Source: a virus. Taken from it: 39,415 nucleotides of DNA. Shown here piece after piece: positions 1,318 to 39,327 of the stretch (its first letter is position 1; the number at the start of each line of letters is the position of its first letter). The stretch spans positions 1 through 39,415 of the IMG/VR virus record IMGVR_UViG_3300037502_003122; one strand, written 5' to 3'. The notes below the pieces were generated by a model, which made no database searches, was not told the DNA's origin, and saw only the letters and a list, made by a program, of their open reading frames with translations. The position numbers and the translations under genes are program-made.

Positions 1318-1940
1318 GCGGCCACCGCCACGGATTGGGACCGCCGCTTGGCGAGCACCGACGTGGGCACGCACGCATCGCACCGGGTCTTGGGCCGACC
1401 GGGCGGCACGAACGGGATGGCTGCCTGGCACACCCGGCACACCGGCTGCGGGCGCTCAGGGTGCAGGGCGTAGTACCGGGCCAGCGCCTGCGCGCGCTTG
1501 ATGGCCTGCCGCTTCGGGCAGGCGTTGTGGCGGGCCTCGGTGGCCTTCCGGGTGGGGCTCGGGTTGAGCGCGTACTTGCGCTTGTAGGCCCGGATCTTGT
1601 CCGGGTTCGCCTTCCGCCAGGCCGCCTTCCACGCGCGCCGCTTGGCCGACCGCTGGCGCCGGCGTTCGCCGGCCCGGCGTTGGTGCTTTCGGGCGGGGTC
1701 CTTGTCGCGACGCGCCGTGGCCTCCCGCCGACGCACGACCCGGCAGGCCGCGCACAGGCTGGCCCGGGAGCTGGTGTTTTCCCGCGGCTGGCTGCAGCGC
1801 CAGCAGCGGCCGGCCTCCTGCCAGGTGCACCGCGGGCACTGCCACAGGATGCGCCCGAGGTGGTCGATCCGCTCCTGCATCGGGGCGCCGCACGTCCCGC
1901 TCCAGCCGGGGCGCTTGCGGTCGCATCGGGCGCTGTTCAC
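1314..1940 (-). CDS. cysteine-rich zinc-binding basic protein, 208 aa
   Basis: Five CxxC pairs are visible: CPRC, CWRC and CAAC in the N-terminal third, and CRVC with CDAC near the C-terminus. A long Arg/Lys/Ala-rich middle segment (about residues 75-150) separates the two clusters. This layout suggests two zinc ribbons joined by a nucleic-acid-binding helix. HNH-type proteins can look like this, but I see no clear H-N-H catalytic triad. The GTG start at 1940 overlaps the previous stop (GTGA) and is preceded by GGAGG. Function is unknown; a DNA-binding role is inferred from composition and from its place between replication genes and RusA. Confidence 0.75.
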   Translation of the reverse strand: MNSARCDRKRPGWSGTCGAPMQERIDHLGRILWQCPRCTWQEAGRCWRCSQPRENTSSRASLCAACRVVRRREATARRDKDPARKHQRRAGERRRQRSAKRRAWKAAWRKANPDKIRAYKRKYALNPSPTRKATEARHNACPKRQAIKRAQALARYYALHPERPQPVCRVCQAAIPFVPPGRPKTRCDACVPTSVLAKRRSQSVAVAA

Positions 1941-2518
1941 GCGGCCACCTCCTCGACGCCGGCCCGGCGGTGCCACCCGGCCGGTGCGGCCGCCTTGGGG
2001 ACGTGCCACGGCTCCAGCCACCCCCACGGCAGGGCGTGGGCGACCAGCTGCTGCATCTCGCCGTCGCTGATGCCTAGGCACCCGCCCCGCAGCGCGCCGC
2101 GATGGACGGCGAACGCCACCCCTCGTTCGGCGTCGAGCCGGTACGGGCCCTTTTCCGCCCCGGGCTTCGCGAACCAGAACGGCGTGGCCCCGTCCAGCAG
2201 GTCGACCTCCTCGCCGTCCGCCACCGGGGTGGGGGTGCCGCCGCGGCGCTTGGCGGTAAGGTCGCGCGCGAGCCGCCCCAAGTCGGCCGGCTTGGGCGCG
2301 AACTCCTGCTCGGCGCACCACCGGCGCGCCGCTTCGACGACCAGGTCGTGGTCCGCGGACCCGCAGGCGCGGGCGTAGTGCGTCAGCCAGTCGTGCGTGT
2401 CCTGGGACTGCCGCGTCACGGCGGCCAGCGCCTTGGGCCAGAGGGGGAGGCACAGCGTCAGCGCCTCCCGGACGGCCGCCAGCAGGGCAGGGGCGGCGCG
2501 GTATTCGGGGGTGGTCAT
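1937..2518 (-). CDS. hypothetical protein of the replication module, 193 aa
   Basis: Lies directly downstream of the putative initiator and overlaps its stop as ATGA, with the exact GGAGG-CCGC-ATGA linker. In lambdoid maps this place holds a helicase loader (P or DnaC type), but I see no Walker motif, so it is not a DnaC-type ATPase. Visible features are an N-terminal helical part (about residues 1-100) containing WLTHYARACG and a C-terminal part rich in Trp and Pro. A helicase-loading or accessory replication role is inferred only from position. Confidence 0.75.
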   Translation of the reverse strand: MTTPEYRAAPALLAAVREALTLCLPLWPKALAAVTRQSQDTHDWLTHYARACGSADHDLVVEAARRWCAEQEFAPKPADLGRLARDLTAKRRGGTPTPVADGEEVDLLDGATPFWFAKPGAEKGPYRLDAERGVAFAVHRGALRGGCLGISDGEMQQLVAHALPWGWLEPWHVPKAAAPAGWHRRAGVEEVAA

Positions 2519-3561
2519 GCGGCCTCCTGCCAGGTGATGCCGCGGTCGGCGCAGTAGGCGATCCACTCAGGGTCGCCGCTGCGGGCGTACCGGACGGCGG
2601 AGAAGTACAGCGGGTCCTTGGTGCCGCCGCCGGCAGCCGTGGCCGCGGGGGTGAGCGCGACGGCGTCGCGGTGCGCCTGCTCGGCGCGCCACCGCTCGAT
2701 GCACCCCGGCACGAAGTAGCCGAGGCTCCGCGGCGGCCGATCGGCGCGCAGCTCGCCGGCCAGCTGCTCGATGCACCCGGCGGCCCAGTCCGGGGGCACG
2801 CCGGCGTCCGCCAGCGCCTGGAGGGCGCGGGCTGTGGTGCCGTGCGTGGCCATGAGCGGGAGGGGCTGCTCGCCGAACCGCGCGGTGATGCCCCGGTTGG
2901 CCGCCGCGGTGAGCAGGCGGCACAAAATGCCGGGTTCCGGTTCGGGAACGGCATCCCCCCCGGATTTTTCGCGCGCACGCGCAGCAGCAAACAGTAGCTG
3001 GCTAGTAGTACTGTCTACGTCTACGTCTACGTCTACGGGGGACACCGTGGACATGTCCCCGGGACGTCCCGGGGATGTCCCGGGGACATGTCCCGTTTGT
3101 CCCGGGGACATGTCCCGCTGATGTCCCACGTGTCCCCGGGACATGTCCCGCCCTTGTCCCGCCGTGTCCCGAAAACGTCCCGACGGCACGGGCTCGTCTT
3201 CTTCCTCGGCGTCGTCTTGGCGACCGGCACGCCAGCGCGCCTTCCGCTGGCGCGACTTTTCGACCTCGCGGATGGCCGCGCCGTTGAGGCGGTCCCACGC
3301 GGCCACCACCCCCGTCTCATCGCAAAACAGGGCCAGAAACGCCGCCGCCAGCTGCCCGTCCCTACCGTCCCACCCGGCCCAATGCTCCAGCACTTCGCCT
3401 GGCACGGCCGCCAGATCGCCGTCTGGAGCGTGGGCGGGCAGGTTGACCAGCACCATGACCACATGCCCCACCGCGGCGGGCACATTGACGCCGCACCGGC
3501 GGGCCAGCTGCACCGTCTTGGGATCGTGCCCGATCTCGGTCGAGATCCGGATCCAGTCCAT
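2515..3561 (-). CDS. putative replication initiator with embedded origin, 348 aa
   Basis: The N-terminal domain (about residues 1-115, starting MDWIRISTEIGHDPK) resembles the N-terminal DNA-binding regions of phage replication organisers. A low-complexity middle (about residues 120-185) is rich in RDMS, GHV and DVDVDVD. The C-terminal helical domain (about residues 200-348) would contact the helicase or loader. The middle segment is encoded by an array of GTCCC repeats, so the gene probably contains its own origin, as lambda O does. The ATG at 3561 overlaps the preceding stop (TGATG). The family match is tentative; position and the iteron array are the main evidence. Confidence 0.72.
   Translation of the reverse strand: MDWIRISTEIGHDPKTVQLARRCGVNVPAAVGHVVMVLVNLPAHAPDGDLAAVPGEVLEHWAGWDGRDGQLAAAFLALFCDETGVVAAWDRLNGAAIREVEKSRQRKARWRAGRQDDAEEEDEPVPSGRFRDTAGQGRDMSRGHVGHQRDMSPGQTGHVPGTSPGRPGDMSTVSPVDVDVDVDSTTSQLLFAAARAREKSGGDAVPEPEPGILCRLLTAAANRGITARFGEQPLPLMATHGTTARALQALADAGVPPDWAAGCIEQLAGELRADRPPRSLGYFVPGCIERWRAEQAHRDAVALTPAATAAGGGTKDPLYFSAVRYARSGDPEWIAYCADRGITWQEAA
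3013..3181. other. putative replication origin: iteron array inside the initiator gene
   Basis: Twelve GTCCC elements start at 3055, 3066, 3077, 3090, 3099, 3112, 3123, 3132, 3145, 3156, 3166 and 3177, with a mean spacing of about 11.1 bp (one helical turn). Three are centred on the perfect 12-bp palindrome GGGACATGTCCC (3083-3094, 3105-3116, 3138-3149), spaced 22 and 33 bp apart. Four tandem GTCTAC units (3013-3036) flank the array on the left, followed by a somewhat less GC-rich stretch at 2961-3012. The 11-bp period is not a multiple of three, so coding constraint does not explain it. Lambda ori has the same arrangement of iterons within gene O. Confidence 0.7.
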
Positions 3562-4048: not shown

Positions 4049-4419
4049 GCGGCCACCTCCGGCACGGGCGCGAACTCCGGCACCCGGCAGAACTGCTCCC
4101 CGCCGCACGCCTGCCCCTCGATGCGCTTGGCCAGCAGGACGACCTGGCTGGCCTGCACCACGCGGACCTGCCGGTCCAGCCCCGTGCGGAAGGTCCGGAA
4201 CACCCGCAGCACGGCGTCGTAGACCACCTGGTCCACCACCCGGTCATCGGCCGTGACGATGCGGTACCGCTGGCCATGCTGCGGCCGGATGACGCGGAGC
4301 TGCTCGTAGCAGGTCCGGCAGACGACCTTCCGGGCTGACATCTGGAGGGCGTTGTCCCCGACCACCGAGTGGCCGGCGGCGCACCGCTTGATGGTGGGGC
4401 CATGGGGGCCGGGCTTCAT
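4045..4419 (-). CDS. small cysteine-containing hypothetical protein, 124 aa
   Basis: The N-terminus has a zinc-ribbon-like arrangement (CAAGH near residue 13 and CRTC near residue 35). It is followed by an alpha/beta region with DRVVDQVVYDAV and VVQASQVVLLAKR, and two further cysteines near the C-terminus (ACGGEQFC). The ATG at 4419 overlaps the upstream stop. One of several cysteine-pair proteins in this operon. Nucleic-acid binding is plausible; function is unknown. Confidence 0.68.
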   Translation of the reverse strand: MKPGPHGPTIKRCAAGHSVVGDNALQMSARKVVCRTCYEQLRVIRPQHGQRYRIVTADDRVVDQVVYDAVLRVFRTFRTGLDRQVRVVQASQVVLLAKRIEGQACGGEQFCRVPEFAPVPEVAA

Positions 4420-5155: not shown

Positions 5156-5484
5156 GCGGCCTCCACGGCCGGGAGCGGCCACGTGGCCATCCAGACCGTC
5201 ATCTTGTCGCGGACGCCCGCGGGCAGCAGGAGCCCCGCCTGGTACAATTCCGACCGGCGCTTCCGCACCGTTGACGGGGCCCGCTTGGCGAAGACGGGCA
5301 GCTGCTCCAGCTCGCGGTCGGTAGCCCCGTAGGCCCCCGCCTCGCTGACGGCGCGCAGGACACCCATCTGCAGCTCGTTGAGCAGCGGCACCACGTCGTC
5401 CGCCGCCTGGTAGCACGTCCGCAGGTCCCGGACCCGGACCATGCGCCGCGGCACAGCCGGCTCAGCCATCATGGTCGCGGCCAT
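5152..5484 (-). CDS. probable winged-helix DNA-binding protein, 110 aa
   Basis: Residues about 35-85 read as a helix-turn-helix: ELQMGVLRAVSEAGAYGATDRELEQ, then RAPSTVRKRRSELYQAGLLL, the usual form of a MarR-like or replication-type winged helix. The start is ATG 5484 or GTG 5487 (GTGATG); ATG is better spaced from GGAGGG. It lies just downstream of the attP-like region, so in a prophage it would be at the opposite end from the integrase. No operator could be identified. Confidence 0.7.
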   Translation of the reverse strand: MAATMMAEPAVPRRMVRVRDLRTCYQAADDVVPLLNELQMGVLRAVSEAGAYGATDRELEQLPVFAKRAPSTVRKRRSELYQAGLLLPAGVRDKMTVWMATWPLPAVEAA

Positions 5485-8264: not shown

Positions 8265-8746
8265 GCGGCCTCCGGGATGGCGCCGGCCACCGGCTGGAGG
8301 GCCTTCCCGAGGTCCGTCGCAATCAAGGCCTTGAACGTGGTCTCCACCTTGAGGAAGGGCAGCTGCAGCTCCGCCTTGCCGGCGGCTTGCTCGATGACCT
8401 TGGCGTCGATCCCCTCCGGGACGTAGCCGATCCGGGAGGCGCGGGCCCACTCCAGCGCGGCCGCGGCGTCCTGCACCGTCACCTTCCTGCTGGCGCGCAC
8501 CTCGACGCCGGGGGCCGGCTTCTTCTCGCCCGTCGACTCGGCCGCCATGACGGCGAGCGTGCGGACCTGCGCCTCGCAGTCGGCGACGGCGCGGGCGAGC
8601 ACCTGGGCGTGGGCGAGTACCGCGGCCTGCTGCTCCTCCCACTCCGCCCGCCGCTGCCGCACCACGTTGGTGGCGTACTCCGACTCAGTGCGCAGCTCCT
8701 GCAGCCGGCGGAGCTCCGCCTGCAGGGTGTCGACGATGACCGTCAC
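8261..8746 (-). CDS. coiled-coil hypothetical protein upstream of RecT, 161 aa
   Basis: Residues about 5-75 form a long heptad-rich helix (LQAELRRLQELRTESEYA, QQAAVLAHAQVLARAVAD). A compact C-terminal domain follows (VTVQDAAAALEWARA, LPFLKVETTFKALIA). Phage recombination operons often carry a helical protein next to recT, but I cannot name this one; Gam-like or Gp157-like proteins are possibilities. The GTG at 8746 overlaps the upstream stop (GTGA). Coupling to recT suggests a recombination or replication accessory role. Confidence 0.75.
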   Translation of the reverse strand: MTVIVDTLQAELRRLQELRTESEYATNVVRQRRAEWEEQQAAVLAHAQVLARAVADCEAQVRTLAVMAAESTGEKKPAPGVEVRASRKVTVQDAAAALEWARASRIGYVPEGIDAKVIEQAAGKAELQLPFLKVETTFKALIATDLGKALQPVAGAIPEAA

Positions 8747-38695: not shown

Positions 38696-39327
38696 GCGGC
38701 CTCCTGCGCAGCAGGCAAAGGGTTGTGGGTTTCGTCGACGACGTCTTCGTTCCATGCGTGCAGCTCCTCCACGACTTTCTCGGCCTCGGCCTCCGCGGCC
38801 GCCTCCACCTCGGGACCCAGGTGCAGCAGCCGCACCGGCAGCGCCCGCAGCCGCGCCGCCAGCCGGTCCAGAATCCGCGCCAGCGCCGCCTCGTAGTCGG
38901 CCAGCGCCACCACCTCGCCCCGCGCCTTCGCCAGCTCGATCTCCGCCAGCTCCGCCTCCGCCAGCGCCTTTCGGGTGCGCGCTTCGTCCAGGCTGACGGT
39001 GGGCGATGCCTCCCGCCGCGCCGTCTCCACCATCTGCTGCTCGCGCCAGCGCGCGAACGCCGGCCACTTGAGCCACACCTTGGTCCCCGCCGACCGCGTC
39101 GGCGCCCCGGGCTTGGCCGCCCACACGCCCACCGCCTGGTACGAGATGCCCAGCTTCTCGGCCACCTCGGTCACCGACATTTCGTCGGCGGCGCGCTTCC
39201 CCTCCGGCGTGGTGATCGAGGTGCGCGCGGGCCCCTTTCGAGGCGCCGGTGCGACCGCCGCGCTTTCCCGGCGATTTGGTGCGGTTTTGGTGCGATTTGG
39301 GACGGATTTGGGCGCTTTCGGAGCCAT
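38692..39327 (-). CDS. terS: terminase small subunit, gpNu1-like, 211 aa
   Basis: Residues about 49-95 form the winged helix typical of gpNu1 (MSVTEVAEKLGISYQAVGVW, TKVWLKWPAFARW). A helical region (LDEARTRKALAEAELAEIELAKARGEV) and an oligomerisation-type domain (DYEAALARILDRLAARLRA) follow. It recognises cos DNA and recruits the large subunit. The first 48 residues are basic and low-complexity and may be an extra DNA contact or non-translated; ATG 39327 has a weak ribosome-binding site. It lies next to the 13-bp terminal repeat. Confidence 0.9.
   Translation of the reverse strand: MAPKAPKSVPNRTKTAPNRRESAAVAPAPRKGPARTSITTPEGKRAADEMSVTEVAEKLGISYQAVGVWAAKPGAPTRSAGTKVWLKWPAFARWREQQMVETARREASPTVSLDEARTRKALAEAELAEIELAKARGEVVALADYEAALARILDRLAARLRALPVRLLHLGPEVEAAAEAEAEKVVEELHAWNEDVVDETHNPLPAAQEAA

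Follow-up and report, generated by a model that had tools for sequence, protein, structure and literature searches.

A phased half-site array inside a phage initiator gene as a probable replication origin

Replication origins can be encoded within the genes of the initiators that bind them. Here we analysed a 39,415-bp stretch of viral DNA (the window; positions 1 to 39,415 of IMG/VR virus record IMGVR_UViG_3300037502_003122) and found an array of GTCCC and GGGAC half-sites, repeated about every 11 bp, inside the gene for a predicted 348-amino-acid replication initiation protein. On the evidence of sequence, the array and the weak DNA segment beside it very probably constitute the replication origin of the phage, which would be located in the part of the initiator gene that encodes a protein linker and would be bound by the product of that same gene.

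The record contains portal, RecT-like, integrase, tail and RusA-like genes and is therefore assigned to a tailed, probably temperate phage. The original prediction had placed the array inside an initiator gene, and profile searches agree: the 348-amino-acid product matches two PHROG 'replication initiation protein' families (phrog_9474, E = 7.5e-16; phrog_2509, E = 1.5e-4). The phrog_9474 match involves the N-terminal part only, pairing protein residues 1–124 with profile positions 1–131 of 288; the alignment stops at residue 124 and leaves the C-terminal part of the profile unmatched, whereas the cultured Faecalibacterium phage FP_Lagaffe (gp47) and Paenibacillus phage Harrison (gp65) match PHROG 9474 over its full length. 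Neither the protein as a whole nor its C-region matched a family in Pfam or NCBIfam. The same two collections revealed no DnaD-like C-terminal domain (DnaB_2, PF07261) in the protein; this domain is present in the C-terminal part of some homologs (L021 and L082). As homologs start with M/V-A-W-I, translation probably begins at the ATG at 3561 (Table 1).

Comparison of the N-domain model with predicted viral structures identified a 'primosomal protein' (TM 0.89) and a 'replisome organizer' (TM 0.76), and the N-domain alone matched no solved structure in the PDB. A full-length model was also used for a PDB fold search and was set aside because it returned no usable match, probably owing to loosely placed domains. 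Among the subset of window proteins scanned, no helicase or helicase loader was recognised near the initiator gene. Directly downstream of this gene is a 193-amino-acid reading frame (1937–2518, minus strand) that has no family or PDB match and is, by its position, a candidate helicase loader. A similar reading-frame start follows the initiator of the nearest relative (L004; 63% identity in the best segment). The GC skew of the record is uninformative. Near the right end of the record there is a short tandem repeat (39270–39322; period 21, consensus GGCGATTTGGGACGGATTTG).

Table 1 Coordinates of the initiator gene and of the features in and around the half-site array
Feature	Position in window	Strand	Basis and remarks
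Initiator gene, 348 amino acids	2515..3561	-	Translation; PHROG 9474/2509; ATG at 3561
N-domain and following long helix (residues 1–118), presumed DNA reader	3208..3561	-	Model with pLDDT 89.8; viral structure matches; motif tracks N-domain identity
Array of 12 GTCCC and 5 GGGAC half-sites	3039..3181		Period 11.0–11.25 bp; in the part encoding the disordered linker
Palindrome GGGACATGTCCC, copy 1	3083..3094		
Palindrome GGGACATGTCCC, copy 2	3105..3116		
Palindrome GGGACATGTCCC, copy 3	3138..3149		
(GTCTAC)4 hexamer tract	3013..3037		Tandem repeat score 50, 100% matches; between the array and the weakest DNA
Presumed DNA unwinding element	2986..3037		Least stable 40-mer of the record at 2990–3029
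Helical C-region (from about residue 183), presumed helicase or loader contact	2515..3015	-	Helices predicted, lower confidence

All twelve GTCCC elements that had been predicted to recur every 9–13 bp were found (at 3055, 3066, 3077, 3090, 3099, 3112, 3123, 3132, 3145, 3156, 3166 and 3177), with successive spacings of 11, 11, 13, 9, 13, 11, 9, 13, 11, 10 and 11 bp. The inverted form, GGGAC, is located at 3039, 3061, 3083, 3105 and 3138 (spacings of 22, 22, 22 and 33 bp). The array ends at 3181, as originally proposed, but its start moves to slightly before the proposed 3044, to the GGGAC at 3039. The three perfect GGGACATGTCCC palindromes described at spacings of 22 and 33 bp are present at 3083, 3105 and 3138 only.

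This density is far above that of shuffled sequence. Against the twelve copies of GTCCC present, 2,000 dinucleotide shuffles of the same stretch yielded 2.4 copies on average and never more than 7, and shuffles of the gene gave at most 4 copies per 134 bp. Elsewhere in the record, the densest 140-bp stretch contains 4 elements, and three GTCCC elements separated by gaps of 4–8 bp occur nowhere outside the array. The half-sites show a Rayleigh phase concentration of 0.87 at 11.0–11.25 bp, compared with 0.30 at 10.5 bp, which is the usual helical repeat of B-DNA. The regular 11-bp spacing is therefore genuine, but the original prediction that all of the sites are on one face of the DNA applies only to DNA kept at around 11 bp per turn.

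Nowhere in the record is the DNA predicted to be less stable than in the segment directly adjoining the array. The 40-mer at 2990–3029 ranks first in instability among about 39,375 positions, and the 50-mer that begins at 2986 is 54% AT, compared with 28% for the record. The least stable 40-mer overlaps the (GTCTAC)4 tract, which appears to be the counterpart of repeats of 5–6 bp in homologs.

An alignment of four annotated homologs was used to find 79 homologous loci, 60 of them viral and 19 genomic; a first alignment of 8 sequences was too diverse to serve as a search query, and a search with the N-domain of the window protein alone found no additional relatives. The genome matches are mostly phages and prophages of Bacillota and Synergistota. 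Removal of redundancy and of members with HNH inserts, and addition of the window, L004 and four annotated phages, gave a set of 55 non-redundant linkers. Autocorrelation in the 5′ part of the linkers peaks at lags of 11, 22 and 33 bp (mean z of 2.62, 1.54 and 1.28, respectively) and in the 3′ part at lags of 5, 10 and 15 bp (1.55, 2.06 and 2.10); the regions that encode the N- and C-domains have neither period. Autocorrelation is flat at lags 10 and 21, which sets the family period at 11 bp and not at 10.5 bp. Measured against a codon-shuffle null, the lag-11 z exceeds 1.65 in 37 of the 55 linkers, and excluding the four GGGAC-type members does not lower the mean. Given the common ancestry of the homologs, the 55 linkers do not represent 55 independent events; in a set limited to 7 N-domains that share less than 45% identity, z at lag 11 averages 2.1, with L075 (one clade) showing no signal.

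The weak DNA also recurs. In 37 of 55 genes, compared with an expectation of 12.9, the linker contains the least stable 40-mer of the gene; averaged over the genes, the profile climbs 110–170 nucleotides past the linker start, just 3′ of the array. On average, then, these homologs show an array and, after it, a melting-prone segment that contains 5-bp repeats. Neighbouring genes of the homologs are annotated as DnaC-like loaders or a primase-helicase.

This layout bears on whether the array could instead be an operator at which the initiator, or a different regulator of the phage, adjusts early-operon transcription. Repressor operators typically consist of palindromic half-sites and many initiators bind their own gene, both of which would suit an operator. 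However, the array is in mid-gene and not at a promoter, its length far exceeds that of a usual operator and, among homologs, it precedes the melting-prone stretch with short repeats; we therefore regard an operator as very unlikely.

Several other loci were noted during the survey. In six homologs (L034, L044, L046, L055, L056 and L086), the initiator incorporates a fused HNH-endonuclease-like domain immediately behind the N-domain and, by eye, short repeats spaced by about 11 bp seem to go on past it. A near-perfect 22-bp array (GGGACATGTCCCGGGACAAATC) lies in a 315-amino-acid reading frame of the viral contig L009 (5906–6853) in a region that is open in several frames; as the protein has no clear family match, this locus was not counted as evidence. 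A pattern search of viral contigs gave several GGGACA-rich regions in other proteins; coding regions rich in GGGACA/TGTCCC, with irregular spacing, were seen in the viral contigs L012 (11637–11890), L007 and L013, one of them in an apparent membrane protein gene. In L010, AAGGGGACATGTCCCCTTG palindromes are repeated at 33, 36 or 40 bp in three places (4238–4289, 5258–5336 and 8355–8439), two of which are inside genes.

The half-sites themselves vary by lineage (for example, GTCAC, GTAACG, GGACGTCC and CGACC). Automatic motif labels on the tree are rough and support only the broad point that motifs differ, and long branches in the tree may falsely group the window with its neighbours. Similarity of motifs is associated with N-domain identity after C-domain identity has been removed (partial r = 0.43), compared with 0.25 for the reverse. 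Motif sharing is 0.24 in pairs with similar N-domains and dissimilar C-domains, against a background of 0.08, and 0.10, near background, in four pairs with similar C-domains and dissimilar N-domains. The motif thus tracks the N-domain more than the C-domain, which suggests that the N-domain is the reader of the array.

A site for partition, packaging or recombination that was located in an initiator gene by chance would not be expected to follow the N-domain of the initiator in this way, to recur inside that gene across the family or to have a weak segment beside it. Plasmid partition sites are often phased repeat arrays, but the subset of window proteins that was scanned included no recognisable partition gene, and we consider a site of this kind extremely unlikely.

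The pattern is also poorly explained by the encoded protein. Copies of GGGAC and GTCCC are spread over all three codon frames and the GGGAC copies encode differing peptides. The constraint therefore acts on the DNA, and codons do not account for the 11-bp period, as had been foreseen. The nearest relative, L004, retains GGGAC and GGGACATGTCCC, and its GGGAC copies likewise use all three frames; their spacing alternates between 9 and 13 bp, which gives a 22-bp unit and not an 11-bp period. When viral contigs were searched for paired copies of GGGACATGTCCC, this near relative was recovered again (L011, on the same contig as L004). Across the homologs, both periods persist under the codon-shuffle null, in which amino-acid and codon composition are kept. 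The array does encode a linker between the well-predicted N-domain and the helical C-region that is predicted to be disordered (pLDDT under 50 for residues 134–182), and repeat expansions are common in linkers; however, the use of three frames, periods of 11 and 5 that are not multiples of 3 and that survive codon shuffling, and the adjoining stability minimum make it extremely improbable that the repeats are a by-product of a flexible protein segment with no role for the DNA, and explanations by codons or protein repeats were rejected on the frame and shuffle tests.

For an origin within the initiator gene, we infer binding, stoichiometry, under-twisting, opening and helicase recruitment from these observations. 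The N-domain of the 348-amino-acid protein would bind the GGGAC/GTCCC half-sites. Dimers would probably occupy GGGACATGTCCC and additional subunits would be placed at intervals of 11 bp, such that a dozen subunits could form a compact nucleoprotein complex. As the sites recur at 11 bp, about half a base pair above 10.5 bp, a complex built on one face would under-twist the DNA. The resulting strain, perhaps together with contacts to single-stranded DNA in the hexamer tract, may open the adjacent weak segment at 2986–3037. A helicase or helicase loader would then be recruited through the helical C-region.

More tentatively, and with less than even confidence, we suggest that the family represents a widespread class of phage origin. 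In such a class, a replisome-organiser-like N-domain would assemble on half-sites spaced at exactly 11 bp, under-twist the DNA and open it into a strand-specific single-strand binding tract of 5–6-bp repeats. Both DNA codes would be written within a protein linker, their sequences varying by lineage and the 11-bp/5-bp geometry remaining fixed. If the reading of the array as an intragenic origin is right, a single gene sequence would suffice to locate the origin in many cultured and uncultured phages and prophages. The family would also provide dozens of natural protein and motif pairs for the study of how the N-domain reads DNA, and a fixed geometry with changing sequence would offer a direct handle on how initiators open DNA.

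In open-licence papers, consulted mostly as titles and abstracts, we found no description of an embedded 11-bp array in this initiator family, and an earlier description is possible. Elements of the arrangement have parallels in well-studied origins. The opening region of Bacillus subtilis oriC contains DnaA-trios and a DnaD recognition element, short regular repeats that are read on one strand (PMC10201434). The tract of 5–6-bp repeats is a possible analogue and, like the DnaD recognition element, may function in single-stranded form, although its repeat is 5 or 6 bp in length with a lineage-specific sequence, unlike the 3-nucleotide trio or the TnnT motif. Iteron plasmids of the RepA and RepE types also have helix-phased arrays of initiator sites beside an AT-rich region (PMC5043065). 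In contrast to these, the array in the window is within coding sequence and has inverted half-sites and an 11-bp repeat, and the families matched by the protein are those of phage replication initiation, with no match to a Rep family in Pfam.

Closer likenesses are found among phages. In lambda, the origin is within the gene of the initiator O, between the parts encoding its N- and C-terminal regions; several palindromic sites for the initiator precede an opening region that is AT-rich (PMC5043065, PMC7466680). The four lambda iterons are 18 bp in length and spaced by 20, 24 and 23 bp, and autocorrelation of the lambda sequence appears at lags 20–25 with none at 11, whereas half-sites in the window recur every 11 bp. 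Comparison by hhalign detected no similarity between the N-domain and lambda O (probability of 0.1%), and the 348-amino-acid protein has no match to Pfam phage_rep_O at E values of up to 1. Given this lack of similarity and the wider iteron spacing of lambda, we liken the system to lambda O in logic and do not class it as a member. The original prediction of a lambda-O-like origin is favoured in this sense, and indirectly, by the initiator family, the position of the array, the adjacent putative melting site and the layout in homologs. Its further claim of a pattern much denser than that of lambda agrees with the 11-bp half-sites, but the pattern is not peculiar to this phage and is a family trait with lineage-specific motifs.

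In SPP1, the initiator gp38 binds direct repeats in its own gene (oriL), by an AT-rich unwinding element, with a loader and a DnaB-type helicase following (PMC6316719). The likeness to gp38 and oriL, drawn from the published description only, is that of repeats in an initiator gene beside weak DNA; a neighbour of one homolog is annotated 'SPP1 gp38-like'. Origins inside initiator genes have experimental precedents in lambda and SPP1, and two features of intragenic origins of this kind, an array within the initiator gene and easily melted DNA beside it, are present here.
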